Assembly (NCBI RefSeq): GCF_963082495.1
Contig: NZ_CAUJAN010000001.1
Coordinates: 186,001-250,000, forward strand
From: Methanobrevibacter sp. V74
GTDB lineage: Archaea > Methanobacteriota > Methanobacteria > Methanobacteriales > Methanobacteriaceae
Reading direction: 5' to 3'
Length of the DNA: 64,000 nt
Of the stretch, positions 972-30,245 are shown in pieces. The stretch's first letter is position 1, and the number at the start of each line of letters is the position of its first letter. A program made the position numbers and the translations under genes. A model generated the notes under the pieces. That model was given only the letters and a program-made list of their open reading frames with translations, was not told the DNA's origin and searched no databases.

Positions 972-1922
972 TCATATTTTATTCAGGTAATTGCAAGTAT
1001 GGTCTGAAGAAAATATATTTCCATCTTTTAAAGCTTGGCTTCTACAACCTCCACATTTACATTTATATAAACATTCATTACAAAATCCAGTTCTTTTATA
1101 TCTTAGATTTTCCATTAAATTGGAATTCCAAATTTCATTAAAATCATCTTTTAAAATATTACCTATTGTTATGGGCAGATTGCTACATGGTAAAATATCT
1201 CCATTATATTTGACAGAAATGAGAGATTTTCCAACTTCACAACCTATTGCTTTTTTGTCCCAAAGAATCCATTGAGGATAAAACATGAAAACTTTTATTG
1301 ATGGCTTTTGAGTTGTTAGATATTCATGAACATTATTTAAAAAGGTTTCTGTTTCTAAAGAGTTTAACATCAAATTTCTTAAATTTTTTCCTCTTCCACT
1401 TGGATTTAATGCTTCAAAAGTAATAGAATCTAATTTTAAATTTTCTGCCATATGAATTAAATTAATAAAATCATTTGCATTGTTTTTACTTACACAAACA
1501 CCCATATCAACAGATATATTTTGATCTTTAACAATTTTCATGGCATTTAATGCATCATAATATGAATTGTCTCTAAATTTGTTATGAATATTAGCATTTG
1601 TTGATTCAAAACTTATGCTCATTCCATCAATACCAATTTTTGATAAGTATTTTGCTTTTTTTTTATTTATTAAAGATCCATTTGTTAATATTGTTGTTTT
1701 AAAGTATTTTTTTGATTCTTTGAGTATATCGAATATGTCTGGTCTTAAAAAAGGTTCTCCACCACTAATTATAAGTTTATCAATATTTAATTCATTTAAA
1801 GATTTAATAACTTCTAAAATTGTATTTAAGGATTCAAAATTATTGTAATATTTCATTGAGTCCATATAACAATAAGAACAATTTAAATTACAGTATTCAG
1901 TGACTCTCATTACACATTTCAT
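972..1922 (-). CDS. Radical SAM/SPASM enzyme, probable peptide maturase (second of a pair)
   Basis: Radical SAM enzyme of about 316 residues. The N-terminus has the CxxxCxxC iron-sulfur motif (CNLNCSYC) and the SGGEPF SAM-binding motif. The C-terminus has a cysteine-rich SPASM region (CNECLYKCKCGGC), which in this superfamily usually binds extra Fe-S clusters and is typical of enzymes that modify ribosomal peptides. The start chosen at 1922 gives MKCVMRVTEYC and overlaps the end of the preceding radical SAM gene by 26 bp, suggesting translational coupling. An ATG upstream at 1949 and a second one at 1910 are alternatives. The substrate is inferred to be the 15-residue peptide encoded at the head of the operon; a metabolite substrate cannot be excluded. 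Confidence 0.85.
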   Translation of the reverse strand: MKCVMRVTEYCNLNCSYCYMDSMKYYNNFESLNTILEVIKSLNELNIDKLIISGGEPFLRPDIFDILKESKKYFKTTILTNGSLINKKKAKYLSKIGIDGMSISFESTNANIHNKFRDNSYYDALNAMKIVKDQNISVDMGVCVSKNNANDFINLIHMAENLKLDSITFEALNPSGRGKNLRNLMLNSLETETFLNNVHEYLTTQKPSIKVFMFYPQWILWDKKAIGCEVGKSLISVKYNGDILPCSNLPITIGNILKDDFNEIWNSNLMENLRYKRTGFCNECLYKCKCGGCRSQALKDGNIFSSDHTCNYLNKI

Positions 1923-2904
1923 CTTTAAACATCCAGCACTGAGGATCATTTCCTAAATAAAAACCATTTGAATGTGCAGCTCCTCTGCATCCTCCACAAA
2001 GATATTTATAAATGCAATTCATACAATTTTTTATTAAGTCCCTATTTCTTAAATTTTTAAAAATGACTGAATTTTCCCAAATTTCTTCCAAAGTCATTTT
2101 ATTTAAATTTCCAGAATTGACTTGTAGTCTTGGACAAGAAAAAACAGATAAATCTTGATTAATACATAATGCAGATATTCCTGCTGTACATCCACCACAA
2201 ACATGGTTTTTATCTAAGAAATTATCTAAATTTTCACTAAAAATTAACCATAAAGGGTCATTTGATTCAACATTTAATCCAGTTTCTAGAGAATAAGATT
2301 TCATTAAATTGAATACATTTAGCATATCCTCAAATGATAATATATTTGAGTTGTCCGATTTGTTTATTGGAGTAATTCTTTCTATTATGCATCTATCTAC
2401 ATCGTTTTCCAATGCTAAATTTAAATAATTTTTTACATCATCATAATTACTTTTCATCAATGTCATTCTTAATGAAGTATAAATATCATTTTTTTTCAAA
2501 TTTTTTATTGCTTCAATTGATTTATCAAAAGTTCCAGATCCTCTAATTAAATCATTAATTTCTTTACAAGATCCATCTACACTAATTGTTACATCAACAT
2601 TATATTTTTTCAGTTCTTTAATTGTATTTTCTGTTATTAGTGTCCCATTTGAAGTAATGTGGTTAGTTAATGACAGATTATTAGAATATTCTAAAATTTT
2701 AAATATTTCCGAATGTAGTAAGGGTTCCCCACCACTGAATATTACATTTTTTGTTCCTAAATCTTTTGCTTGATTTAATATTTCTTTAACTTTTTCTAAT
2801 GATAAATCACCATATTTTGAATATTTACTAGCATAACAATAACTACAATTTAGATTGCATCGACCAGTTATGTGAAATACTAATAAAAAAGGAGTAAATT
2901 CCAT
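1897..2904 (-). CDS. Radical SAM/SPASM enzyme, probable peptide maturase (first of a pair)
   Basis: Radical SAM enzyme of about 335 residues with CNLNCSYC near residue 16, SGGEPL for SAM binding, and a C-terminal SPASM domain (CGGCTAG, then CMNCIYKYLCGGC and a last Cys in NDPQC). The start at 2904 is preferred because AAGGTGATAAC stands just before the ATG; a longer reading frame from 2973 would run back through the hairpin and lacks such a site. It has the same design as the gene after it, so two steps of modification or two related products are possible. The order is peptide ORF, 9-bp hairpin, this gene, second enzyme, all on one strand. Confidence 0.87.
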   Translation of the reverse strand: MEFTPFLLVFHITGRCNLNCSYCYASKYSKYGDLSLEKVKEILNQAKDLGTKNVIFSGGEPLLHSEIFKILEYSNNLSLTNHITSNGTLITENTIKELKKYNVDVTISVDGSCKEINDLIRGSGTFDKSIEAIKNLKKNDIYTSLRMTLMKSNYDDVKNYLNLALENDVDRCIIERITPINKSDNSNILSFEDMLNVFNLMKSYSLETGLNVESNDPLWLIFSENLDNFLDKNHVCGGCTAGISALCINQDLSVFSCPRLQVNSGNLNKMTLEEIWENSVIFKNLRNRDLIKNCMNCIYKYLCGGCRGAAHSNGFYLGNDPQCWMFKDEMCNESH

Positions 2905-2919
2905 GTTATCACCTTGTAT

Positions 2920-2948
2920 TTGTGGGGCAAATAAGTTTAGCCCCACAA
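2920..2948 (-). promoter_or_regulatory. GC-rich hairpin between the peptide ORF and the radical SAM genes
   Basis: TTGTGGGGC and GCCCCACAA form a perfect 9-bp stem with an 11-base loop, by far the most GC-rich structure in this stretch. It begins 7 bases after the stop of the 15-codon ORF and ends just before the ribosome site of the first radical SAM gene. It has no following U tract. In peptide-maturase operons such hairpins often let the precursor mRNA be more abundant than the enzyme mRNA; that role is inferred here. Confidence 0.75.
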
Positions 2949-2954
2949 TTTTTT

Positions 2955-3002
2955 TTAGTGGTTGTGTTTGCAACCTAACATCAAAAATTCTTCATAACTC
3001 AT
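2955..3002 (-). CDS. Candidate RiPP precursor peptide, 15 residues, Cys/His-rich end
   Basis: A 16-codon ORF encodes MSYEEFLMLGCKHNH. It has one of the best ribosome sites in the region (AGGTGATAAATT then ATG). The peptide has an acidic, hydrophobic front (SYEEFLML) that could be a recognition segment, and a Gly-Cys-Lys-His-Asn-His end with one cysteine and two histidines that could be modified or bind metal. It is too short for normal gene callers. Position at the head of a two-gene radical SAM/SPASM operon, followed by a hairpin, is the classical layout of a small ribosomally made, modified peptide. It could instead be a leader peptide that controls the operon. No protease or dedicated exporter lies on the same strand; two ABC proteins lie in the divergent cluster. 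Confidence 0.6.
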   Translation of the reverse strand: MSYEEFLMLGCKHNH

Positions 3003-3777
3003 AATTTATCACCTGTTTTTGTTTTCACAATTAATATTAATATTACTAATTAGTAATAACTAATTAATAAAAAATTAATTGTTATTAATACAATTGTATA
3101 TTTTAGTATATAATGTTTTTCATTGTATTACTTAATTTAATAATAATTATTATTTATTTGTATTATATTAATTTTTTGATAAATTAGTGGCTTTTTATTC
3201 ATTTTATTTAATTAACTTCATTAAAGATAGATGGATTTAAAATAAGGATAGTTTAATACAATCATGATTTTTAAATGAAGGTTGTCATATTTTTTAGGAA
3301 GTTAGAAAAAATATTTTTTTTAACCTTGTAGAAACTTACTTTAAAATAGTTGTATTGCTCTTTAAATATTATATAACACCTCTTTGAGTTTTGTTTCTTT
3401 ATTTTGGAGTTTTGTGTTTTGGCTATAGTTTCCTTCGTTTAATCTCCTTTTTATTACATATATTACGCTTTCTACATTCATAAATTATTAAAAAATTCAA
3501 TAAAAAAACTAATATATTGAACATATCTTGTGCATATATTTTAAAATAACTAAATTTTTTTTAAAGTATCTATTTTTGGCATGAAAATATTTAAATAGTA
3601 CTTAAATTATAGTAATAATATTAGTTAAAACTATATTAATTAATTAATACTTTTTTAATTATTAATAATAATTAAATGGTTTTGATAAAAATCTTGTTAG
3701 TATTTAGAAAATAATTCAGTTTTTTTTCTTTGATATTGCAAGTATTTTAATAAATGTTTATTAAATGGTGGAAGGAT
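3003..3777. other. AT-rich divergent intergenic region between the peptide operon and the ECF-terpenoid cluster
   Basis: About 775 bases with no convincing ORF. On the peptide side, minus-strand AT-rich TATA-like stretches (ATTATATAC near 3105-3113, AAATATACA near 3092-3100) precede the tiny ORF. On the cluster side, boxes such as AAATATTTAAAT near 3586 and ACTATATTAATTAA near 3629 are candidates. A perfect 16-bp palindrome lies at 3042-3057, and related TAGTAATA motifs occur near both promoters. The middle (3240-3480) shows nothing I recognise. Confidence 0.6.
3042..3057. promoter_or_regulatory. Perfect palindrome upstream of the peptide ORF, candidate operator
   Basis: ATTACTAATTAGTAAT is its own reverse complement over 16 bases. 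It overlaps a second arm pair (TTAGT-AATA-ACTAA, 3050-3063). It stands about 40-60 bases before the peptide start, where the transcription start would be expected. A similar string (TAGTAATAATATTAGTTA) occurs at 3610-3627 near the divergent cluster promoter. In such AT-rich DNA chance palindromes are common, so this is a weak call. Confidence 0.3.
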
Positions 3778-4323
3778 ATGAATAATGATTTAAATAGAAA
3801 TAAATTTTATTTTAGTAACAAAGAAATAACTTTGCTTGCTGCTTTTTTTGTTTTGTTGTTAGCAGATAATTTCATTTGGACATTAGGTCCAATGGTAGGT
3901 AATGTTATTTATGGTGTAGTTGAAGGAGTGATTTTAATAGTGGCTGCTATTGTTGTTGGTAAAAAATATACTATGGTAACATTAGGCTTTGTTAGGACTT
4001 TAGCAGAATTTATTATAGCTGGAGCATTTGTTGGAAGTTTAACAGCATTTTCATATATTATTTGTGCTATAATTTTAGAAGTTATTTTGTTAACTTCAGA
4101 TTCATATGGTGAAAGTTTAAAAACAAATATTATAGGCACGGCAATTTATGGTATAGTAAGTAGAATTGTTTTTTTAGGAATTAGTATGATTTTTTATGGG
4201 ATGGTTTTACCTAATTCATTACTTGCATTCATGGTCATCGTTCCAACTATTTCATTCACAATAGGTGGTTTGATTGGAACTTCTTTTGGTAAACGTGTTA
4301 AAACAATATTGTTTTCAATTTAG
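3778..4323 (+). CDS. ECF transporter S component (substrate-binding membrane subunit), copy 1
   Basis: Small hydrophobic protein of 181 residues with about five to six predicted membrane segments and the conserved start NKFYFSNKEI, shared with the protein at 6830. The start at 3778 is preferred over the ATG at 3754 because GGTGGAAGGAT stands directly before it. The presence of EcfT and a double EcfA downstream makes it very likely an S component, the membrane protein that binds the small ligand of an ECF importer. It resembles the group often called Trep_Strep or MptD-like, which commonly sits next to ecfT, ecfA and two ABC half-transporters; this family placement is from memory. The ligand is unknown. 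Confidence 0.75.
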   Translation: MNNDLNRNKFYFSNKEITLLAAFFVLLLADNFIWTLGPMVGNVIYGVVEGVILIVAAIVVGKKYTMVTLGFVRTLAEFIIAGAFVGSLTAFSYIICAIILEVILLTSDSYGESLKTNIIGTAIYGIVSRIVFLGISMIFYGMVLPNSLLAFMVIVPTISFTIGGLIGTSFGKRVKTILFSI

Positions 4324-4331
4324 GTGATTTA

Positions 4332-5177
4332 ATGGGCAGTATAGTTATTAAATTAAAGAATCTTATTTCAATTCCACGCCCACATTTATTTGTAATTCCC
4401 GCAGCAGTTGGTATTTGTGGATATGTTTTATCTTCATCAAAAGTTGATTTGTTTGGAATAATATTTAGCATACTTATACCCATTTTAATATGGTCTGGGG
4501 GTCAAACATTCAATGATTTTTATGATGCAGATTTTGATAAGGTTTATCATCCTGAATGGCCTATTCCATCTGGCAATATAACAAAAAAAACAGCTTTGGT
4601 ATATGGTTCTTTATTTTATGCTTTGGGAATTATATGTTCATTGGGGTTTAATATTTATTGTACGATAGTCACTTTGTTTATAATATTTTTTTCATTTATT
4701 TATAGCAAGCTTAAAAGAAAAGGAATATATGGTAATATTTGCTTTGGTATTTGTGTTTCATTATGTTTACTAATAGGTTCAACAATCGCAAAAAATACTA
4801 CATTCATGATTTTTTACATAATGTTAATATCTATTTTGATTCATATGTCTGATAATATTATAGGGACTTTTGCTGATATGGATGTTGATAAAAAATTAGG
4901 TTTCAATACATTACCTATTGAATTTGGGATAAAGAAATCTGCAAGGATTTGTCTTTTATTTATTATAATTTCTTTTATCATGACATTAATACTGTCAGGG
5001 TTTACATTAAATTATTTTTTACCTTTAGCGATTATTGCATTTATTTCAATTTTTTGGAGTTCATTGATGGTGTATTCTAATCCTAGAAAATTCACTAAAA
5101 TTAGTGGCTTTTGGATTGTTTATTCTTTTTTCATGGGTGAAATATTATTTTACATGTCCTTTTTGGTAGGAGGATGA
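4332..5177 (+). CDS. UbiA-family membrane prenyltransferase
   Basis: A 281-residue multi-pass membrane protein with both aspartate-rich motifs of the UbiA superfamily: N61-D62-x-x-D65-x-x-x-D69 (NDFYDADFD), followed by the PIPSG element, and D182-M-D-V-D186 followed by GFNTLPI. These motifs bind the Mg-diphosphate of a prenyl donor. UbiA enzymes attach prenyl chains to aromatic or polar acceptors; some members are terpene cyclases. Start has GGTGATTTA before ATG, 8 bases after the S component stop, and the next gene begins 6 bases after its stop. The expected Arg of NPxRPIPSG is a Trp here (HPEWPIPSG). Genome-wide archaeal lipid UbiA enzymes exist, but location beside a cyclase and importer points to a specialised product. 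Confidence 0.88.
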   Translation: MGSIVIKLKNLISIPRPHLFVIPAAVGICGYVLSSSKVDLFGIIFSILIPILIWSGGQTFNDFYDADFDKVYHPEWPIPSGNITKKTALVYGSLFYALGIICSLGFNIYCTIVTLFIIFFSFIYSKLKRKGIYGNICFGICVSLCLLIGSTIAKNTTFMIFYIMLISILIHMSDNIIGTFADMDVDKKLGFNTLPIEFGIKKSARICLLFIIISFIMTLILSGFTLNYFLPLAIIAFISIFWSSLMVYSNPRKFTKISGFWIVYSFFMGEILFYMSFLVGG

Positions 5178-5183
5178 TTATTC

Positions 5184-6737
5184 ATGCATAAAAAAGTTGA
5201 AAATTCTTTAAATAATGGGTTGGAATATTTAATTTCCCAACAAAAAGAGAATAAATATTGGAATTATGGTTTTAAATCTTGTAGTTTTGCCACTGCAATA
5301 GCTTCTATTGTTTTTCAGGAATATGGGCGGAAAAAAGAATCAAAAAAAGCTATTAATTGGCTTTTAGAAAATCAGAATGATGATGGTGGTTGGGGTGATA
5401 TAAAGGGAGGTCCTAGTGAAAAAAACTCTACTTTGTGTAGTTTAGCAACCTTTAAGTTAAATAATTATTATGAATCGAATTTAGATTATTTACTCAAATA
5501 TTTTTTAAATTATGATGTATCTCCTCAAACATTATGTTATTTAGCTTATGTGGGGTTGATTAATTGGGATGATGTTAAAATTCCTAAATTATGCATGATG
5601 TCAAATCCTATTTTATTTAATGAAACGGAGTTTAAATTAGATGAACCAATGGTTTTCATTGAAAGATTCACATCAACAGCAGTAAGCCTTTTAAAAACTT
5701 TAAATTCAAGTGATGATTGTGAATTGGCTTTTGTCAAAAATGCTTTTGATAATATTTTTAAATTTCAGGCTTTTAATGGGTGTTGGTTTGGTTATACTCA
5801 TATTACTGCTTTGATATTATTAGCCATGACAAATTTTAATTTTGATTGTAAAATTAATTCTTTAAATTGGATTTTGAATATGCAAAATGATGATGGGGGT
5901 GTGTCTATATCTGAGGGATTACCTATACATGACACAGCTTTAAGTTTAATAACCTTAAAAAATGGGGGTTTAGATATTAACAAATATGTTAATTCTAAAA
6001 AATGGATTTTAAATTCTCAAAAAACTAATGGGGCATGGGGTTGGATACCTGATTACTCACCAGTTGATTCTGATGATACTGCTCTTTGTTGTTTGGCTCT
6101 TGATTTATATAATAATTCCAATGACATTTTTGCTGCGAGGTATAATGCTATTAAATGGTTGAAATTAAGGCAAGTGGATGATGGGGGAATTGCTACTTTT
6201 CCAGTTGATTATGATGGATATGTTCCTGGTGGGGAAATCACGACATTGAGTGTCACATCTAGAACTCTTAAAACTTTTATTTCAATGAATGATTTAGATG
6301 AATCAAAAAAAGCAGAAAAATATTTGTCGAATAAAGTTTTTAATAAATTTTCATTGAACGATTGGTTTTTTGGATATTACTCTTTATCTTTGGCTATTGA
6401 AGTGTTAATTAAACGGGGTTTTAACGAAAAGAATTTTAAAGAAATTATGGCTTTTTTAGTTAAAAATCAGAATAAAAATGGGTCTTGGGGGGATGAATCA
6501 GATTCAAATAGTTGTGTGGAAGAAACATCTTTTGTTTTATATATTTTAATTTTGTTGGGTATGAACATTTTTGATGATGTTATAAAAAAAGGATTGGAGT
6601 TTTTGCTGAAAAATCAATTAGATGATGGTAGTTGGAAATCATCTTATTTAGGTTATATTCCTCCTGTTAGATATGATAATAAAATTTGGACAGAATATTC
6701 AGTAATAAGGTTGTTTAACTTGATTTTAGAGAGGTAA
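5184..6737 (+). CDS. Class II terpene cyclase-like protein (squalene-hopene cyclase fold repeats)
   Basis: A 517-residue soluble or membrane-associated protein with repeated QW-type motifs (QNDDGGWGD, QNDDGGVS, QKTNGAWGW, QVDDGGIA, QNKNGSWGD, QLDDGSW), the hallmark of the alpha-alpha barrel of squalene-hopene cyclases and prenyltransferase beta subunits. It also has DSDDTA at residues 295-300, matching the DxDD acid motif that protonates the substrate in class II cyclases. Its length of about 517 is nearer to bacterial class II diterpene cyclases (about 500) than to squalene-hopene cyclase (about 630). GGAGG precedes the ATG. The likely substrate is a C20 prenyl chain, free or attached by the UbiA partner; this is inference. 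Confidence 0.82.
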   Translation: MHKKVENSLNNGLEYLISQQKENKYWNYGFKSCSFATAIASIVFQEYGRKKESKKAINWLLENQNDDGGWGDIKGGPSEKNSTLCSLATFKLNNYYESNLDYLLKYFLNYDVSPQTLCYLAYVGLINWDDVKIPKLCMMSNPILFNETEFKLDEPMVFIERFTSTAVSLLKTLNSSDDCELAFVKNAFDNIFKFQAFNGCWFGYTHITALILLAMTNFNFDCKINSLNWILNMQNDDGGVSISEGLPIHDTALSLITLKNGGLDINKYVNSKKWILNSQKTNGAWGWIPDYSPVDSDDTALCCLALDLYNNSNDIFAARYNAIKWLKLRQVDDGGIATFPVDYDGYVPGGEITTLSVTSRTLKTFISMNDLDESKKAEKYLSNKVFNKFSLNDWFFGYYSLSLAIEVLIKRGFNEKNFKEIMAFLVKNQNKNGSWGDESDSNSCVEETSFVLYILILLGMNIFDDVIKKGLEFLLKNQLDDGSWKSSYLGYIPPVRYDNKIWTEYSVIRLFNLILER

Positions 6738-6829
6738 TTTTTTTTTTAAAATAATTAAATTAATATAATGCATTGAACTTTTAATTTTAATAAATTTTTG
6801 GATAATTAATAAATATTTGGGGAAACATT

Positions 6830-7381
6830 ATGAAAACTAAAAATTATGAACAAAATAATAAAAATAAGTTTTATTTTAGTAATAAAGAAATAGCTTTAAT
6901 TTCTACTTTTTTAGTAATGTTGCTTATTGGGGAATGTGTTTGGTTTGCAGGGCCTATTATAGGTATTGTGTTTCATGGAATAGTTTGGGGAATAATCTTA
7001 ACAATTGCTGCAATTATTATTAATAAGAAATACACGATTTTAGCATTGGGGGTAGCATATACATTAATTGATTTTACTTCAGCAAGTATGTATGGAGGAA
7101 CACTTTCTGCACTTAATACTTTAGTAGGGGTTTTAATTTTAGAGTATTTCCTACAAATTACTAAAGATTATGGTTCTAATTTAAAGATGGATTTATTAGG
7201 GATAATATTATTTGCATTAGTTTCAAGATCGGTTTATGTTTTTATTATGACTTGCGTGTATGGTATGAATATTCCTTTTTACTTAGCAATATTTTCTTTT
7301 ATACTGCCTCATTTATTCACTTTTCCAATTGGAACTTTGATTGGTTATAAAATGAGTAATAGAATAAAAAATGTAATATGA
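6830..7381 (+). CDS. ECF transporter S component, copy 2
   Basis: A 183-residue membrane protein clearly related to the one at 3778: both have NKFYFSNKEI near the start, a conserved G-P-I/M-x-G segment about 45 residues in, and a similar spacing of hydrophobic helices. GGGGA lies upstream of the ATG. A 92-base gap from the cyclase gene may hold an internal promoter. Two S components in one cluster usually mean two ligands sharing one energising module (EcfT plus EcfA), or a duplicated subunit with altered specificity. Placement around the UbiA-cyclase pair suggests that both belong to the same pathway. Confidence 0.75.
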   Translation: MKTKNYEQNNKNKFYFSNKEIALISTFLVMLLIGECVWFAGPIIGIVFHGIVWGIILTIAAIIINKKYTILALGVAYTLIDFTSASMYGGTLSALNTLVGVLILEYFLQITKDYGSNLKMDLLGIILFALVSRSVYVFIMTCVYGMNIPFYLAIFSFILPHLFTFPIGTLIGYKMSNRIKNVI

Positions 7382-7396: not shown

Positions 7397-8185
7397 ATTA
7401 TTGAATATGTTAAATCTAATTCGTTTGTACACAGACTGGATCCTCGTTCGAAGCTTTTATTTTCGTTTTGTATTTTAGGTGCTTCTGTTATAACATATTC
7501 AATGCCTTTTTTATTTTTGTTAATAGTTATTTCATTAATAATATGGAAATTATCAGATATTCCCATTAAAAATTTCAAGCCATTTTTTCTAATGATTTTT
7601 GTTATAGTGGTAATTGGAATAATCACTCAAGCAGTTTTTTTCACTGATAAACCAGGTTATAGTGGAACTAAAACAGTTATTTTTAATTTAATGCCGTGCA
7701 ATATTCCATTTATTGGCTATTTGCCGGTTACTGTTGAAGGAATAAACTATGGTATTATTTTTTCAATGAGGATGGTTGCAATATTTATTCCCCCACTCAT
7801 TCTTCCATTTACAACACATCCTAGTGAAATTATAATGATGTTGAGGAAATTTAGATTTCCGGAATGGATGATTTTGTTGTTTACAATGGCAATACGTTTT
7901 TTACCATTGACTATTCAAAATATTTCAATTACAAGAAACGCACAAAAAATTAGGAAAGATAAAATAAACTTACGTGACTTATTGTTACTTTTAGAATCAA
8001 TTATAATCACATCACTTAGAACGGCTAAGCAAATGGCCTTAACATTGGATGTAAAATCTTTTGGGTATAGTGAAAAGAGAACATCAATGAAAAACATTAG
8101 CTTTAAGAAATTAGATTTTGTTTTTTCACTATTTTCAATTTCTATTTTTATTTTTTCAATAATGTTATATTGGGGAGGTTGGTGA
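7397..8185 (+). CDS. ecfT: EcfT, transmembrane coupling subunit of an ECF transporter (unusual ATT start)
   Basis: The family N-terminus IEYVKSNSFVHRLDPRSKLL is clearly encoded from 7397, but no ATG, GTG or TTG lies in frame between the TGA at 7379-7381 and the internal ATG at 7502. A GGAG at 7385-7388 is correctly spaced for an ATT at 7397, so I extend the gene to that codon (262 residues). The typical HRLDPR motif near the start and the AIRFLPLT and NAQKIRKDKI segments, which are the coupling-helix region of EcfT, are present. EcfT links the S components to the ATPase. A caller that begins at 7502 would lose 35 conserved residues. Confidence 0.82.
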   Translation: MIEYVKSNSFVHRLDPRSKLLFSFCILGASVITYSMPFLFLLIVISLIIWKLSDIPIKNFKPFFLMIFVIVVIGIITQAVFFTDKPGYSGTKTVIFNLMPCNIPFIGYLPVTVEGINYGIIFSMRMVAIFIPPLILPFTTHPSEIIMMLRKFRFPEWMILLFTMAIRFLPLTIQNISITRNAQKIRKDKINLRDLLLLLESIIITSLRTAKQMALTLDVKSFGYSEKRTSMKNISFKKLDFVFSLFSISIFIFSIMLYWGGW

Positions 8186-8187
8186 TA

Positions 8188-9831
8188 ATGGAACCTATAA
8201 TCGATGTTGAAAATTTGTCTTTTAAGTATTTTGGTTGTAATGATTTTGCTCTTAAAGACATTAATATAAAGATTGGAAAAGGTGAATTTATAGGCGTTAT
8301 TGGTAAATCTGGAAGTGGAAAATCAACATTGCTTCATTGTTTAACAGGTATTATTCCTCATGAAATTAAAGGGGAAAAAACTGGATCGGTTATGATAAAT
8401 AATTTAAACACTGATGAGCATGGAATATCTGAAATAACTAATCAATTAGGGATAGTTTTTCAAAATCCAGAAATTCAACTTTTTAATATTTCTGTTGAAG
8501 ATGAATTAGCTTTTATTTGTGAAAATTTAGCATATCCTATTGATGAAATTAAAAAATCCGTTGATTTTGCATTGGATACAATTGGGATTCGCCATTTAAA
8601 AGATGAATATCCGTTTAATTTATCGGGTGGTGAAAAACAAAAGGTCGCTATTGCTTCAGTATTGACTGTACGTCCAAAAATATTAGTTTTAGATGAACCT
8701 ACTTCTGAATTGGATGCAAAAGGAAAAGAAACAGTATTTAAAACATTAAAAAAGCTTAAAAATGATGGGATGACGATTATATTAGTTGATCATAACTTGG
8801 ATGGGTCTTATAAATTAGCCGATAAATTAATTTTATTGGATGACGGCAAAATTGAGATGTTTGGAGAAACTGAAAATATTTTAAAATCTCCCATGATTGA
8901 ATCATTAGGTTTAAGACTTCCACAACAAGTTCAAATGGGTTTAAAACTAAAATTAGATGGCATGTTAATGGATATAGAAAATATGGCAAGGCTATTGGAT
9001 GAGAAAATAATAAATAAGGAATTTTCTATTAAATACTTAAATTTAGTCAATAATTCTAATGTTGAAAATACCATAAAAATTGAAAATTTGTCTTTTAAAA
9101 GAGATAATCATGTTATTTTAAAGAATATTGATCTTGAAATTAAAAAAGGTGATTTCATAGCTTTAATTGGAAAAAATGGTTCGGGTAAAACAACTTTAGC
9201 TTTGATTATAATGGGCATTCTAAAAAAAAATAAGGGGGTTGTAAATGTTTTTGGAGAAACTAATGGCGACATTAAAAAAATCAGGAAAAAAGTCGGATTT
9301 TTATTTCAAAATCCCGAACATCAACTATTTTGTAATACTGTGACTGAAGAGATAAAATACGGGCTTGAAAATGATATTGATATGAATAAGATAATGGAGA
9401 ATATGAATCTTAAGAGATTGAAGGATAATCATCCGTTAACTTTAAGTAGGGGCGAAAGACAAAGAGTAGCAACAGCCACGGCAATTTCTAATAATCCTGA
9501 AATTTTAATAATTGATGAACCTACAACAGGTCAGGATTGGAATAATATAAAATCATTTATGAATATTTTAAAAGAATTAAACGATAATGGCAAAACTATT
9601 CTAATAATAACTCATGATATGAGAGTTGTTGGCGAATATTGTAAAAAAGTTATTTTGATGGATGATGGTGAAATATTGTTTAATTTAGAGACACGTGAAG
9701 CATTTGAGAAATTAAGCGCTTTTGAAAATTATGATATAAAACCTTCGATTATTGCAGATATAAGTATTAAATCCGGCATTAGTCCTCCTTTGTTGAATAT
9801 AAATGAATTAATTGGTGATGATAATGTTTAG
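8188..9831 (+). CDS. Fused double EcfA ATPase (two ATP-binding domains in one chain)
   Basis: A 547-residue cytoplasmic ATPase with two ABC domains: Walker A GKSGSGKST and GKNGSGKTT, signature LSGGEKQ and LSRGERQ, Walker B ILVLDEPT and ILIIDEPT. Such fusions replace the EcfA-EcfA' pair of ECF importers. The start at 8188 follows GGAGGTTGGTGATA, just after the ecfT stop; a TTG at 8170 is an alternative upstream codon. The second signature has Arg where Gly is usual (LSRGE), which may make the two ATP sites unequal. It would energise both S components of this cluster. Confidence 0.9.
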   Translation: MEPIIDVENLSFKYFGCNDFALKDINIKIGKGEFIGVIGKSGSGKSTLLHCLTGIIPHEIKGEKTGSVMINNLNTDEHGISEITNQLGIVFQNPEIQLFNISVEDELAFICENLAYPIDEIKKSVDFALDTIGIRHLKDEYPFNLSGGEKQKVAIASVLTVRPKILVLDEPTSELDAKGKETVFKTLKKLKNDGMTIILVDHNLDGSYKLADKLILLDDGKIEMFGETENILKSPMIESLGLRLPQQVQMGLKLKLDGMLMDIENMARLLDEKIINKEFSIKYLNLVNNSNVENTIKIENLSFKRDNHVILKNIDLEIKKGDFIALIGKNGSGKTTLALIIMGILKKNKGVVNVFGETNGDIKKIRKKVGFLFQNPEHQLFCNTVTEEIKYGLENDIDMNKIMENMNLKRLKDNHPLTLSRGERQRVATATAISNNPEILIIDEPTTGQDWNNIKSFMNILKELNDNGKTILIITHDMRVVGEYCKKVILMDDGEILFNLETREAFEKLSAFENYDIKPSIIADISIKSGISPPLLNINELIGDDNV

Positions 9832-11551
9832 AGATTTATTAAAACTTGCGAATAAACGTAGAAATAAACTAATATTTGCATCATTTTTACATGTGTTGTC
9901 TTCCGGGATTTCAATTATTCCCTTTTTCATAATTTATTTAATAATATTGGTTTTTTTCCAAAATTCAATAGATTTTAAATATCTTACAGCTATTTTAATA
10001 GCCATACCATTGGTTTATGTTTTGGAATTTTTTATAATGATGTTTGCTTATAATGTTTCCCATAGGGCAGCTTATGAAATTATTTATGAGGTTCGGCTTG
10101 ATTTAGCTAATCATTTAATTTCATTACCTCTTAGTAATTTTAAAGAAAAACGCACTGGGGATTTTGAAACGGTTTTAAATGAAAATTCGGAAATCTTGGA
10201 ACTTTTTTTAGCCCATCATCTTCCTGAAATGATTAGTACAATTTTTGTTCCTTTTTTCACAGCATTGTTTTTATTTTATATTGATTGGAAAATGGCATTA
10301 GTTTGTTTATGTCCAATTGTTTTAGCTTTTATACCAATAATTTCTCAACTTAACTCTTTAAATGATATGATTAATAATCATTTAAAAACACAATCACATA
10401 TGAATTCAACAATTTTGGAATATGTGATGGGTATAAAAGTTATTAAAGTTTTTAATAGGTCAAAAGACTCATTTGATAAGTATAAGGGAGCTATTTTAAA
10501 ATGGAAAAATAGTATGAGAATATGGTCAACTCAAAGAGCATTATCTTTTACTTTATATCAGGCATTTATCGGTTCTACTTTGTTATTCATTATTCCATTT
10601 GGGGTTTATTTTTATATTGATGGAACGTTGATTCTAGAATCATTTATATTTTTCATGATAATGGGACCAATTTTTGGTAATCAGTTCATGAGAATATATG
10701 AGTTTATTAGGCATAATATGGAGGAACGGGAGTCTTTAAATAGGATTAATCAAGTGTTATCTCTTAAACCAGTTAAAGATTGTGGAACAATTGCATTGGA
10801 AGATATTAGATGCATAGAGTTTCAGGATATTTCCTTTTCTTATGATGGTGAAATCAATGCTTTAAAAAATTTAAATCTTTTATTTGAAGGAGGTAGAAAA
10901 TATGCATTAGTTGGACCTTCGGGATCAGGCAAAACCACAATTATTAGGCTTATTCTTAGATTTTGGGATGATTATAATGGTAAAATAAAAATTAATGGTA
11001 TTGATATAAAAGAAGTCTCATTAGAAGAATTATTGTCATTTATTTCAATTGTTTTTCAAGATAATTTTTTGTTTAATGACACAATTTTTGAAAATATTAA
11101 AATTGGAAATCCTAATGCTAGTTTGGAAGAGATTATACAAGTTTCTAAAGAAACATACTGTCATGATTTTATAAAAAATCTTCCTAATGGCTATGACACA
11201 GTTGTTGGAGAAGATGGTTCTAAATTAAGTAGTGGTGAAAAACAAAGAATTGCTATTGCTAGGGCAATTTTAAAAGATGCTCCTTTAATAATTTTAGATG
11301 AATTTACCGGATTTGTAGATGCTGAAAATGAATATTTGATACAAAAGGCGTTAAATAAACTCACAAAAAATAAGACAGTAATAATAATTGCGCATAAATT
11401 GTCTACAATACGAAATGTAGATCATATCTTTGTTCTTAATGAGGGGGAGCTTGTTGAAGAAGGCAATCATAATCAGTTAATTCATTTAGATGGGATTTAT
11501 AAAAAATTATGGAGTATTCATAGTTCAGCTGATAATTGGAAGGTGAGATAA
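9824..11551 (+). CDS. ABC transporter half-unit, membrane domain fused to ATPase (first of a pair)
   Basis: About 575 residues: a six-helix type IV ABC membrane domain (residues 1-310) and an ATPase domain with Walker A GPSGSGKTT, Q-loop FQDNF, signature LSSGEKQRIAIARAI, Walker B LIILDEF and H-loop IAHKLST. The Pro after DE is Phe (DEFTGF), and the D-loop is VDAEN, so this site looks altered. GGTGAT before the chosen ATG overlaps the EcfA stop. With the next gene it should form a heterodimer. Sequence relatives include both drug or lipid exporters and YbtPQ/IrtAB-type siderophore importers, so direction cannot be told from sequence. Confidence 0.85.
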   Translation: MFRDLLKLANKRRNKLIFASFLHVLSSGISIIPFFIIYLIILVFFQNSIDFKYLTAILIAIPLVYVLEFFIMMFAYNVSHRAAYEIIYEVRLDLANHLISLPLSNFKEKRTGDFETVLNENSEILELFLAHHLPEMISTIFVPFFTALFLFYIDWKMALVCLCPIVLAFIPIISQLNSLNDMINNHLKTQSHMNSTILEYVMGIKVIKVFNRSKDSFDKYKGAILKWKNSMRIWSTQRALSFTLYQAFIGSTLLFIIPFGVYFYIDGTLILESFIFFMIMGPIFGNQFMRIYEFIRHNMEERESLNRINQVLSLKPVKDCGTIALEDIRCIEFQDISFSYDGEINALKNLNLLFEGGRKYALVGPSGSGKTTIIRLILRFWDDYNGKIKINGIDIKEVSLEELLSFISIVFQDNFLFNDTIFENIKIGNPNASLEEIIQVSKETYCHDFIKNLPNGYDTVVGEDGSKLSSGEKQRIAIARAILKDAPLIILDEFTGFVDAENEYLIQKALNKLTKNKTVIIIAHKLSTIRNVDHIFVLNEGELVEEGNHNQLIHLDGIYKKLWSIHSSADNWKVR

Positions 11552-13275
11552 TGATTAGGGATCTTTATTCTCTTTTTGGAAAGAACAAATATAAAGTTAA
11601 AAAATCTTTGTTATTTTTGTTATTGCATAGTTTTATTAGTATTGTTCCTCTTTTCATAATATTTTTGTTTATACTGGAATTTTTTAAAAGCAGTATAAGT
11701 ATATCCAATTTAATTTATTTCACAGTCTTTTTAGCCGGAACTTATATTGTATTTAATAGTTTAGAGCACCATATTTATTTATATTTTATGAATTTGGGGT
11801 TGGATATTTCCTATGACTTACGTTTAGATATTGGTAAAAAATTAACAGAATTACATTTGGGATTTTTTAATATTAGTACATTAGGTGAGATAAACACAAT
11901 AATAAGTGAATATGTATCTAAGGTTGAATATTTTGTTACATACACTGCCCCATTTATGGTTTCTTCAATAATTACTGTTGTTTTACTCAGCATGATTTTT
12001 TTCATATTGGATTGGAGGATTGCTATTTGTTCGTCTATGGTTTTTCCATTATCTTATTTGTCATTTAAACATTCCGATAAGGTTTCTAAGATTGTTGTTA
12101 AAAATAGGGAAAAATCTTTGATTAAATATAATTCTGCGATTGTGGAGTTTATTAGGGGAATAAATATAATAAAAATTTATAATTTAAATTCAAAACAGTT
12201 TAAAAAGTTTCATTTAGCTACAAAAGATTTTAGGGACAAAAATATTGAAAATGTTAAAGCTACAATGATTCCAAACATTTTTGTCCTATTTTTTGCAAGT
12301 ATTAGTGTAATAATTTTATTTCCAATCGGAATCTATTTGTATATAACTAAATCAATAAGTCTTTTTAAAATAATATTTTTCTTTATTGCAACACCCAGTA
12401 TATCATCGGCTATGACTGATTGTCTTTTTGGATATATTCATCTTAAAAATCATGTCGGATATGGAGTTAAATGTATTAATAATTTAATGGATGAAAAAAT
12501 CATTTCAGAAAATAAAAATGAAGTAAAATTGAATAATTATGATATTATAATTTCTGAGGTTACTTTTGCTTATGAAAACGAAAAAGTTTTAAATAATATT
12601 AGTTTTAAATGCAACGAAAAGACTTTAACTGCACTAGTTGGACCTTCAGGTTCTGGAAAAACAACTATGATAAATTTAATTTTAAGATTTTGGGATGTTC
12701 AGGAAGGTTCAATAGTTATTGGAGGTTATGATATAAGGGAAATGCCTTTAAAACAATTATCAGATATAATTTCAATTGTTTTTCAAGATGTTTTTCTTTT
12801 TGATGCATCTCTTAAAGATAATATTAAAATGGCTAAAAAAAATGCAACCGATGAAGAGATTATTAAAGCATCTAAAGATGCAATGTGTCATGAGTTTATA
12901 GAAAAATTGCCTAATGGTTATGATACAATCGTTGGGGAGAATGGTTCTAAATTAAGTGAAGGTGAAAAACAAAGAATTTCTATTGCTCGAGCAATTTTAA
13001 AGGATTCTCCAATAATAATATTGGATGAACCTACTTCTTCATTAGATGCTGAAAATGAGTATTTAATTCAAAAAGCTATTGAAAAGATGATTAAATCAAA
13101 AACTGTTATAATGATAGCTCATAGACTCCATACCATAAGTTCTGCAGATCAAATAATATTTTTAAAAAAAGGAGAAATTTTTGAAAAAGGAACTCACAAT
13201 GATTTAATGGATAAAAAAGGGCATTATTATAATTTTTGGAATATTCAAGAAAAAGTAAGGGAATGGAAATTTTAA
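11551..13275 (+). CDS. ABC transporter half-unit, membrane domain fused to ATPase (second of a pair)
   Basis: About 574 residues with the same design as the gene before it, starting in a TAATG overlap with its stop and preceded by GGTGAGAT. ATPase motifs are Walker A GPSGSGKTT, signature LSEGEKQRISIARAI, Walker B IIILDEPTSSLDAEN and H-loop IAHRLHT. The two halves are similar enough to be old paralogues. This is the last gene of the ECF-terpenoid cluster; an AT-rich gap of 255 bases with short T runs follows. Confidence 0.85.
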   Translation: MIRDLYSLFGKNKYKVKKSLLFLLLHSFISIVPLFIIFLFILEFFKSSISISNLIYFTVFLAGTYIVFNSLEHHIYLYFMNLGLDISYDLRLDIGKKLTELHLGFFNISTLGEINTIISEYVSKVEYFVTYTAPFMVSSIITVVLLSMIFFILDWRIAICSSMVFPLSYLSFKHSDKVSKIVVKNREKSLIKYNSAIVEFIRGINIIKIYNLNSKQFKKFHLATKDFRDKNIENVKATMIPNIFVLFFASISVIILFPIGIYLYITKSISLFKIIFFFIATPSISSAMTDCLFGYIHLKNHVGYGVKCINNLMDEKIISENKNEVKLNNYDIIISEVTFAYENEKVLNNISFKCNEKTLTALVGPSGSGKTTMINLILRFWDVQEGSIVIGGYDIREMPLKQLSDIISIVFQDVFLFDASLKDNIKMAKKNATDEEIIKASKDAMCHEFIEKLPNGYDTIVGENGSKLSEGEKQRISIARAILKDSPIIILDEPTSSLDAENEYLIQKAIEKMIKSKTVIMIAHRLHTISSADQIIFLKKGEIFEKGTHNDLMDKKGHYYNFWNIQEKVREWKF

Positions 13276-21523: not shown

Positions 21524-23056
21524 TTGTTTGTTAAAAGGATGGTGATAAAGTTGAGTTATGCTCAAAACAACATTGTTTTAGAGTCCACAACATCATACGC
21601 TACGCTATGGTCTGATACTGATTGGAAGAAGACCTATAAGTATGTAAATAAACAAAGATTTAGGATATTTCGTGCCGAAAGTGAAGGTGATAGTCGAAAA
21701 GTTAGAGATTTACAGCGAATGTTAGTTCGTAGCCCTGCCGCATTAAAAGTAGCAATTAAAAGGGTTACACAGACAAATAAAGGTAAAAGAACTCCTGGTG
21801 TGGATAGATATCTTGCATTAAGCGATGCTGAACGAGGAAAATTGTTTATTAAGATAATAAATAGAAATATAAACAAACATAACCCCAAGCCTGTGTATAG
21901 GACTCAAATTCCGAAAAGTAATGGTAAAACTCGTTCTCTTGGTATTCCTACCATTATTGACAGAGTTTATCAGGAATTACTTCGTTTAGTCTTGGAGCCG
22001 CAATGGGAAGCTCGTTTTGAACCTATAAGTTATGGTTTTAGGCCTGCAAGACGAGTTCATGATGCAATGGAAAGAATTTTCCATGACATACATTATCGCA
22101 GATTCAATTATGTATTCGAGGGCGATTTCAAGGCATGCTTCGATACATTAAGCCATGAATTCATCATGGAACAATTAAAAGGATTTCCGTATGTCGGATT
22201 GGTTGAAAAGTTTCTTAAAGCTGGATATGTGGAAAATGGAGAATTTTTCTCCACCAATCAAGGAACTCCACAAGGAGGGTTGTTATCGCCATTGCTAGCA
22301 AATATTGCCTTACATGGATTAGAAAACTGTTTAAATATTTCATATTATGAATACCATAGCAGTAAAGGTTATATGACTTTTATTACTCGTGGAAAATATC
22401 GGGTTGTGAGGTATGCCGATGATTTTCTTATATTTGCAAGAAATAAGGAAGATATAGAAGCAATACCTAACATTCTTAAAGAATATTTGGATAGGAGAGG
22501 TTTAATCCTCTCTGAAGACAAAACTTGTTTCACAACCATCTTTAAAGGATTTGATTTCCTAGGTTTTAATGTTAAAATCGAAAGAGATAATAAATGCATT
22601 ATTAAACCATCAAAAGACTCTGTTAAAAAGGCTAAAGCCAAAATTAAAGATATCTTCGAATATGCTAAGGGACAGAATGTGGAATATCTCATTGATAAGT
22701 TAAACCCAGTGCTTGATGGCATTGCAGAATTTTGGAAACCTATGGCTTCTTCTAAAGCATTTTCAAATCTTGACAATTATATTTGGAAGAAAAATTGGAA
22801 ATTCCTAAATCATCTTCATCCTAATAAAAGTTCTGGTTGGATAGTTAATAAATATTTCCCCAGACCTGAGAAAGATGATGAACATCAAGATAAATGGATT
22901 TTAACTGACTCAAATACAGGTAAACAGTTGAATAAAATGTCATGGACTAATATTGAAAGGCATACAATGATTAAACATAACTATTCGCCTTTGGACAAAA
23001 GCAAATATGATTACTTTTACAAAAGAAGACTATCGACTGCAAATATTTTCAGATAA
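21524..23056 (+). CDS. ltrA: Group II intron reverse transcriptase/maturase, copy 1
   Basis: A 510-residue intron-encoded protein. It has reverse transcriptase blocks (IPKSNGKTRSLGIPTIIDRVYQ is the RT2-like segment, YGFRP, GTPQGGLLSPLLANI, and the catalytic YADDFLIF), then a maturase X region (WKKNWKFLNHLHPNK). I see no C-terminal HNH endonuclease cysteines. AAAAGGATGGTGATAAAGTTG lies at the front, so the ATG at 21524 or a TTG at 21551 may be used. It assists splicing and copies the intron into new sites matching its target. The protein is identical in sequence to that of copy 2. Confidence 0.92.
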   Translation: MFVKRMVIKLSYAQNNIVLESTTSYATLWSDTDWKKTYKYVNKQRFRIFRAESEGDSRKVRDLQRMLVRSPAALKVAIKRVTQTNKGKRTPGVDRYLALSDAERGKLFIKIINRNINKHNPKPVYRTQIPKSNGKTRSLGIPTIIDRVYQELLRLVLEPQWEARFEPISYGFRPARRVHDAMERIFHDIHYRRFNYVFEGDFKACFDTLSHEFIMEQLKGFPYVGLVEKFLKAGYVENGEFFSTNQGTPQGGLLSPLLANIALHGLENCLNISYYEYHSSKGYMTFITRGKYRVVRYADDFLIFARNKEDIEAIPNILKEYLDRRGLILSEDKTCFTTIFKGFDFLGFNVKIERDNKCIIKPSKDSVKKAKAKIKDIFEYAKGQNVEYLIDKLNPVLDGIAEFWKPMASSKAFSNLDNYIWKKNWKFLNHLHPNKSSGWIVNKYFPRPEKDDEHQDKWILTDSNTGKQLNKMSWTNIERHTMIKHNYSPLDKSKYDYFYKRRLSTANIFR

Positions 23057-28712: not shown

Positions 28713-30245
28713 TTGTTTGTTAAAAGGATGGTGATAAAGTTGAGTTATGCTCAAAACAACATTGTTTTAGAGTCCACAACATCATACGCTACGCTATGGT
28801 CTGATACTGATTGGAAGAAGACCTATAAGTATGTAAATAAACAAAGATTTAGGATATTTCGTGCCGAAAGTGAAGGTGATAGTCGAAAAGTTAGAGATTT
28901 ACAGCGAATGTTAGTTCGTAGCCCTGCCGCATTAAAAGTAGCAATTAAAAGGGTTACACAGACAAATAAAGGTAAAAGAACTCCTGGTGTGGATAGATAT
29001 CTTGCATTAAGCGATGCTGAACGAGGAAAATTGTTTATTAAGATAATAAATAGAAATATAAACAAACATAACCCCAAGCCTGTGTATAGGACTCAAATTC
29101 CGAAAAGTAATGGTAAAACTCGTTCTCTTGGTATTCCTACCATTATTGACAGAGTTTATCAGGAATTACTTCGTTTAGTCTTGGAGCCGCAATGGGAAGC
29201 TCGTTTTGAACCTATAAGTTATGGTTTTAGGCCTGCAAGACGAGTTCATGATGCAATGGAAAGAATTTTCCATGACATACATTATCGCAGATTCAATTAT
29301 GTATTCGAGGGCGATTTCAAGGCATGCTTCGATACATTAAGCCATGAATTCATCATGGAACAATTAAAAGGATTTCCGTATGTCGGATTGGTTGAAAAGT
29401 TTCTTAAAGCTGGATATGTGGAAAATGGAGAATTTTTCTCCACCAATCAAGGAACTCCACAAGGAGGGTTGTTATCGCCATTGCTAGCAAATATTGCCTT
29501 ACATGGATTAGAAAACTGTTTAAATATTTCATATTATGAATACCATAGCAGTAAAGGTTATATGACTTTTATTACTCGTGGAAAATATCGGGTTGTGAGG
29601 TATGCCGATGATTTTCTTATATTTGCAAGAAATAAGGAAGATATAGAAGCAATACCTAACATTCTTAAAGAATATTTGGATAGGAGAGGTTTAATCCTCT
29701 CTGAAGACAAAACTTGTTTCACAACCATCTTTAAAGGATTTGATTTCCTAGGTTTTAATGTTAAAATCGAAAGAGATAATAAATGCATTATTAAACCATC
29801 AAAAGACTCTGTTAAAAAGGCTAAAGCCAAAATTAAAGATATCTTCGAATATGCTAAGGGACAGAATGTGGAATATCTCATTGATAAGTTAAACCCAGTG
29901 CTTGATGGCATTGCAGAATTTTGGAAACCTATGGCTTCTTCTAAAGCATTTTCAAATCTTGACAATTATATTTGGAAGAAAAATTGGAAATTCCTAAATC
30001 ATCTTCATCCTAATAAAAGTTCTGGTTGGATAGTTAATAAATATTTCCCCAGACCTGAGAAAGATGATGAACATCAAGATAAATGGATTTTAACTGACTC
30101 AAATACAGGTAAACAGTTGAATAAAATGTCATGGACTAATATTGAAAGGCATACAATGATTAAACATAACTATTCGCCTTTGGACAAAAGCAAATATGAT
30201 TACTTTTACAAAAGAAGACTATCGACTGCAAATATTTTCAGATAA
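28713..30245 (+). CDS. ltrA: Group II intron reverse transcriptase/maturase, copy 2
   Basis: Identical 510-residue protein to that at 21524-23056, with the reverse transcriptase core (GTPQGGLLSPLLANI, YADDFLIF) and maturase domain, and no HNH endonuclease. Both copies are intact, so both could supply protein for splicing and mobility. Confidence 0.92.
   Translation: MFVKRMVIKLSYAQNNIVLESTTSYATLWSDTDWKKTYKYVNKQRFRIFRAESEGDSRKVRDLQRMLVRSPAALKVAIKRVTQTNKGKRTPGVDRYLALSDAERGKLFIKIINRNINKHNPKPVYRTQIPKSNGKTRSLGIPTIIDRVYQELLRLVLEPQWEARFEPISYGFRPARRVHDAMERIFHDIHYRRFNYVFEGDFKACFDTLSHEFIMEQLKGFPYVGLVEKFLKAGYVENGEFFSTNQGTPQGGLLSPLLANIALHGLENCLNISYYEYHSSKGYMTFITRGKYRVVRYADDFLIFARNKEDIEAIPNILKEYLDRRGLILSEDKTCFTTIFKGFDFLGFNVKIERDNKCIIKPSKDSVKKAKAKIKDIFEYAKGQNVEYLIDKLNPVLDGIAEFWKPMASSKAFSNLDNYIWKKNWKFLNHLHPNKSSGWIVNKYFPRPEKDDEHQDKWILTDSNTGKQLNKMSWTNIERHTMIKHNYSPLDKSKYDYFYKRRLSTANIFR

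Follow-up and report, generated by a model that had tools for sequence, protein, structure and literature searches.

The closest described systems each resemble one part of the locus analyzed here. In the WGK/streptide group of streptococcal radical SAM RiPPs (WgkB, StrB, and SuiB), the S. ferus locus combines a very short precursor (21 amino acids, by eye), a hairpin, and a radical S-adenosylmethionine (SAM)/SPASM maturase. In the pyrroloquinoline quinone (PQQ) and mycofactocin pathways, a precursor peptide and a radical SAM/SPASM maturase yield a small cofactor, and the PqqE-like fold is shared with the present system. Methanobactin-like metal-binding ribosomally synthesized and post-translationally modified peptides (RiPPs) offer a parallel in that metal chelation is proposed for a ribosomal peptide; methanobactin is made by other enzymes. 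In the equibactin and yersiniabactin loci, a permease/ATPase importer (EqbHIJ) and a YbtP/YbtQ-like pair (EqbKL; YbtPQ) lie beside the biosynthesis genes, according to the available part of PMC3672683. Here, we describe a locus in a 64,000-nucleotide stretch of the Methanobrevibacter sp. V74 genome (the window), where a 15-codon gene precedes genes for two radical SAM/SPASM enzymes, denoted A and B. Sequence comparisons strongly indicate a real gene that is under selection and is functionally tied, in methanogens, to the enzyme pair and to a dedicated transport set. The best explanation of the whole, to which we assign a probability of about 0.6, is that the locus encodes a radical SAM RiPP modified at its GCxHNH end, and that the product is exported, re-imported, and most likely a metallophore.

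This locus differs from the WGK systems in that the peptide lacks the WGK motif, there are two maturases, the host is an archaeon, and energy-coupling factor (ECF) and YbtPQ-like transport genes are present in place of the single membrane protein, MATE-like by eye, of the S. ferus locus. Enzyme A is 31% identical to WgkB, in which the CxxxCxxC motif begins at residue 19, so that this protein has no N-terminal RiPP recognition element (RRE) either. The WgkB profile scored 163.2 bits for A and 144.5 for B against a cut-off of 650, which places neither in the WGK family. The scores were similarly low for PqqE (94.5 and 100.1; cut-off, 381) and for the mycofactocin maturase (120.1 and 85.4; cut-off, 265). 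Unlike the PQQ and mycofactocin pathways, the cluster contains two maturases, and no PqqD/MftB-like protein, peptidase, or dehydrogenase was recognized in it, without a dedicated search. Unlike methanobactin, both linked enzymes here are radical SAM proteins. The equibactin and yersiniabactin products are non-ribosomal peptides, whereas the candidate scaffold here is ribosomal; we infer that EqbHIJ is an ECF system, and the likeness to the Eqb proteins is one of description. The first-pass annotation of the window had placed the peptide among the shortest precursors; short it is, but not the shortest, biarylitide precursors having 5 residues according to the available part of PMC13417212.

The locus that, at the sequence level, decides the reality of the peptide is that of G145, a genome from another family of the same order. 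Its enzymes are 52% (A) and 50% (B) identical to those of the window, and 64 bases ahead of enzyme A (L008, 1389-1436), after a GGAGGT motif, lies a gene of the same length encoding MDYEEFLEMGCFHNH followed by a stop. Eleven of the 15 residues are identical, the C-terminal HNH-stop is kept, and YEEFL, apart from the Cys and His codons, is conserved too. The best 15-residue match to the peptide upstream of G145 enzyme A scored 66, whereas 1,000 first-order Markov simulations of the region never exceeded 34. Among 67 genomes of the genus, including the window's own, enzyme A was found at E ≤ 1e-40 in only one other genome, that of a second species (G006), with 84% identity. The peptide of this species has the identical 15 residues, and all three nucleotide differences in the open reading frame (ORF) are synonymous third-position changes. 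The first-pass annotation had proposed the peptide as the substrate of the enzymes, a call that was to fail if related loci lacked a conserved frame or its codons showed no purifying selection. The call survives: the small ORF stands in frame before the enzyme pair in both other intact loci.

A decayed locus is present in G143, a genome of the same genus as G145 (L101, 8977-14443). There, biosynthesis is broken or lost, and the genes for the ECF substrate-binding (S) component, transmembrane component (EcfT), and double ATPase are open, as is the second ATP-binding cassette (ABC) gene, while the first is interrupted by a frameshift. Enzyme A also contains a frameshift, with a match over residues 1-161 only, enzyme B has no match at the locus, and of the UbiA-family prenyltransferase only residues 258-280 were matched. 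The peptide remnant, MNYKEFLKLGCFNN, continues into an out-of-register run within a 29-residue frame, and the HNH-stop end is gone; its score is 48, against a maximum of 35 in 1,000 simulations of that region. The end of the peptide and the maturases decayed together. The neighbors of the module differ from those in G145.

Co-occurrence was analyzed within one phylum at strict thresholds (E from 1e-10 to 1e-50; 0.5 for the peptide). A search with the peptide alone in 149 genomes of the order retrieved five: the window's own (E = 8e-7), G006 (7e-7), G145 (0.002), G143 (0.23), and G024 (0.16). The G024 match was counted as chance because it lies inside a longer frame (110 amino acids reported) and neither enzyme was found in that genome at the thresholds used. 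Enzyme A is encoded in 3 of 151 genomes and enzyme B in 3 of 149, the same ones. The S component and EcfT were each detected in 4 of 149 genomes, the same four as the peptide loci; for the double ATPase and the ABC genes, the comparison covered these four loci only. An extra UbiA is present in two of 149 genomes at E ≤ 1e-25, and a looser search of the four genomes revealed one further distant UbiA relative elsewhere in each. Given this linkage, co-occurrence, and joint decay, the peptide is very probably the substrate of A and B.

Beyond the order, searches used exact peptide patterns, which are missing even from the G145 orthologue, so that they do not imply absence elsewhere. The best 80 loci listed for the enzyme reach at most 38% identity, and the DNA ahead of the enzyme was read in two of them, L009 and L010. 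The latter (5762-7059), from Parcubacteria, contains a small Cys-rich ORF ending LAVCGICSNCCYSDCIGGN (by eye), followed by a strong hairpin and then by a radical SAM gene, and is likely, judging from its sequence, another precursor-maturase pair. Viral contigs contained no relative of enzyme A. Two plasmid matches to A (27-29% identity at E ≤ 1e-25) were taken as generic radical SAM proteins; plasmids yielded no S-component match at E ≤ 1e-3.

Two explanations would deny the ORF the role of a precursor. Being so short (15 codons) and lying in a genome rich in A+T, it could be a chance or spurious reading frame, but this is scarcely credible against the simulated scores and the identity retained at family distance, with the same length and the stop at the same place. 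Alternatively, the ORF could be a regulatory leader peptide (attenuator) that precedes the radical SAM genes and switches them by means of the hairpin. The perfect 9-bp hairpin reported in the first-pass annotation is indeed present right after the ORF (z = -3.7 against 200 shuffles), G006 has a longer one at the matching place (-20.2 kcal/mol, z = -5.1), and Cys and His codons lie near the end of the ORF, all of which would suit an attenuator. This explanation is nevertheless very improbable, mainly because G145 retains the peptide without a hairpin between it and enzyme A (z = 0.8); furthermore, YEEFL, away from the Cys and His codons, is conserved, and hairpins between precursor and maturase also occur in the S. 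ferus WGK locus and the Parcubacteria locus. For the same reason, the hairpin is not an essential or defining part of the system: the precursor-hairpin-maturase layout proposed at first holds in the window and G006 but not in G145.

Both enzymes match the Pfam families Radical_SAM (A, 1.6e-33; B, 1e-28) and SPASM (A, 1.3e-7; B, 2.5e-10), and the CxxxCxxC and SPASM cysteines are conserved in both, which confirms the first-pass reading of two overlapping genes of this type. Alignment with the distant G145 orthologue suggests that the true start of B is the ATG at 1922. Neither protein has an N-terminal extension; the alignment of A with SuiB begins only at residue 101, leaving out the SuiB N-terminal domain.

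The operon is larger than first described: the peptide and the enzyme pair stand, and the transport genes and UbiA belong to it too (Table 1). A divergent operon faces the peptide and enzyme genes in both the window and G006, in the order S1, S2, T, double ATPase, ABC1, and ABC2; only in the window are UbiA and a squalene-hopene-cyclase-like gene inserted between S1 and S2. In G145, all genes lie on one strand in the order peptide, A, B, UbiA, S, EcfT, double ATPase, ABC1, and ABC2. This unit (L089, 3358-13098) is an island that looks acquired, with a GC content of 33-41% between neighbors of 51-54% and a position after tRNA-Arg(GCG); a repeat of the tRNA 3' end was looked for at the far end of the island and not found. 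The importer has EcfT, paired ATPases, and the S-component fold, the features that define an ECF transporter.

Table 1. Features of the locus in the window (positions count from the first nucleotide of the window)
Feature	Position	Strand	Remarks
Enzyme B (radical SAM/SPASM), candidate second maturase	972..1949	minus	325 amino acids, or 316 from the ATG at 1922; overlaps the end of the A gene
Enzyme A (radical SAM/SPASM), candidate maturase of the peptide	1897..2904	minus	335 amino acids
Hairpin, perfect 9-bp stem, between the peptide gene and enzyme A	2920..2948	minus	-16.4 kcal/mol
15-codon putative precursor-peptide gene, MSYEEFLMLGCKHNH	2955..3002	minus (3002-2955)	Conserved in G006 and G145, decayed in G143
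AGGTGAT, resembling a ribosome-binding site, ahead of the peptide gene	~3008..3014	minus	AGGTGAT also in G006; GGAGGT in G145
TTAGTN4ACTAA, possible operator (tentative)	3050..3063	plus	Upstream of the peptide gene
TTAGTN4ACTAA copy with one mismatch (tentative)	3621..3634	plus	Upstream of S component 1
ECF S component 1	3754..4323	plus	
Extra UbiA-family prenyltransferase	4332..5177	plus	NDxxDxxxD and DxxxD motifs; present in the operon of G145 and as a remnant in G143, none at the G006 locus
Squalene-hopene-cyclase-like protein	5184..6737	plus	DxDD motif; beside the extra UbiA
ECF S component 2	6830..7381	plus	Paralogue of S component 1
EcfT (CbiQ-type) transmembrane component	7502..8185	plus	Exceeds the cut-off of Pfam CbiQ but not that of NCBIfam cobalt CbiQ
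EcfA-EcfA' fused double ATPase	8170..9831	plus	Two Walker A and two signature motifs
ABC half transporter, YbtP-like	9812..11551	plus	Top half transporter among the best 60 PDB matches: 6p6i chain A, 314 bits
ABC half transporter, YbtQ-like	11536..13275	plus	Top half transporter among the best 60 PDB matches: 6p6i chain B/YbtQ, 280 bits

We propose that the peptide serves as a ribosomal precursor, in which about nine residues (MSYEEFLML) form the leader and are followed by a short core that ends in GCxHNH. Both enzymes would act on it, the likely outcome being either a thioether at Cys or a carbon-carbon cross-link within the GCxHNH end. As neither enzyme has an N-terminal extension fit for an RRE domain, the catalytic barrel itself probably binds the short leader. 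In some species, the dedicated UbiA might tailor the product or a partner. The product is predicted to be exported and re-imported by the dedicated ECF importer and the YbtP/YbtQ-like pair, with His and Cys as possible metal ligands. Since this combination of transporters resembles that of the equibactin locus, a secreted and re-imported metallophore is our tentative reading of the product, at somewhat short of even odds.

Several points weigh against the proposed explanation. The intact loci found number only three, two of them in close relatives, and the window-G006 pair alone is suggestive but not decisive, because the chance of three synonymous changes out of three, assuming random transitions, is 0.046 and conservation is almost as high over the 60 bases preceding the ORF (52/59) as within it (42/45); it falls to 91/140 further upstream and to 35/53 between the ORF and the enzyme. 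In the peptide-only search, the G143 remnant ranks below the chance match in G024 and is counted as real because of its place alone. No RRE protein or peptidase was recognized among the ORFs read, in which no dedicated search was made. UbiA is present at two of the three intact loci and absent from that of G006, and the squalene-hopene-cyclase-like gene was set aside as a pathway member, being found in one of 149 genomes. ECF importers are mostly vitamin carriers, which fits a cofactor equally. Two-domain exporters, such as ABCB1, outscore YbtP and YbtQ in the PDB lists, so that the likeness is the best only among half transporters. In the equibactin locus itself, the YbtPQ-like pair EqbKL is dispensable for import and may serve efflux, according to the available part of PMC3672683.

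The main rival, unlikely in our estimate, is that the peptide gives rise, like the precursors of PQQ and mycofactocin, to a redox or enzyme cofactor, which the ECF/ABC set would salvage or distribute and a UbiA-added lipid tail would make membrane-soluble. UbiA is absent at the G006 locus, no dependent enzyme was recognized beside the locus, the sporadic occurrence of the unit (3 of 149-151 genomes) and its island-like character in G145 are unusual for a core cofactor, and the half transporters with their equibactin parallel favor metallophore traffic. Sporadic distribution would suit an antimicrobial or signaling peptide exported by the two ABC proteins, with the ECF set for self-uptake or signaling, and several radical SAM RiPPs are antimicrobial or quorum-controlled (in the available part of PMC8326336). 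We consider such a product improbable: no immunity protein or protease-fused exporter was recognized among the ORFs read, it would be atypical for the ECF importer to bring its own S component(s), and two species share the same peptide where diversification might be expected. An extension of the preferred metallophore reading, in which a horizontally moving methanogen island would make a terpene-tailed, radical-modified micro-RiPP from the 15-residue gene by means of two radical SAM enzymes plus, in some species, a lipidation step catalyzed by the dedicated UbiA, to serve as a ribosomal metallophore or carrier cofactor with its own ECF and YbtPQ-like export/uptake cycle, seems to us doubtful.

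Regulation of the locus was approached through the TTAGTN4ACTAA motif, picked post hoc. With up to one mismatch, it has two matches in the 64 kb against 4.5 expected by chance; both lie in the divergent intergenic region, one ahead of each operon. A bacterial promoter scan gave 25 hits against 28.1 in shuffles, no excess. To the left of enzyme B, a broken open frame (300-905) is transposase-like by guess, and its 74-residue piece has no Pfam match. Elsewhere in the window, two group II intron reverse transcriptase/maturase ORFs (21524-23056 and 28713-30245) about 7 kb apart share the same 510-residue translation (RVT_1, RVT_N, and GIIM). The host genome encodes two mcrA genes above the curated cut-off and is therefore a methanogen, as had been supposed.

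Among the matches listed in the open-licence literature (titles and abstract starts), we found no description of this system, nothing joining energy-coupling factor, radical SAM, and precursor peptide, and nothing joining RiPP, UbiA, prenyltransferase, and radical SAM; a paper connecting radical SAM enzymes and RiPPs with Methanobrevibacter deals with thioamidated RiPPs. The comparison defines, in two methanogen families, a conserved core together with the enzyme pair and the transporter dedicated to it, and a 15-codon gene, of a size skipped by annotation pipelines, is now directly testable. The joint decay of tiny ORFs and maturases suggests a route to other micro-precursors. Methanogens depend heavily on nickel, cobalt, and iron. 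If the metallophore reading is true, they would possess a ribosomal metal-scavenging compound, and the ECF and YbtPQ-like set in these archaea would be given a purpose.
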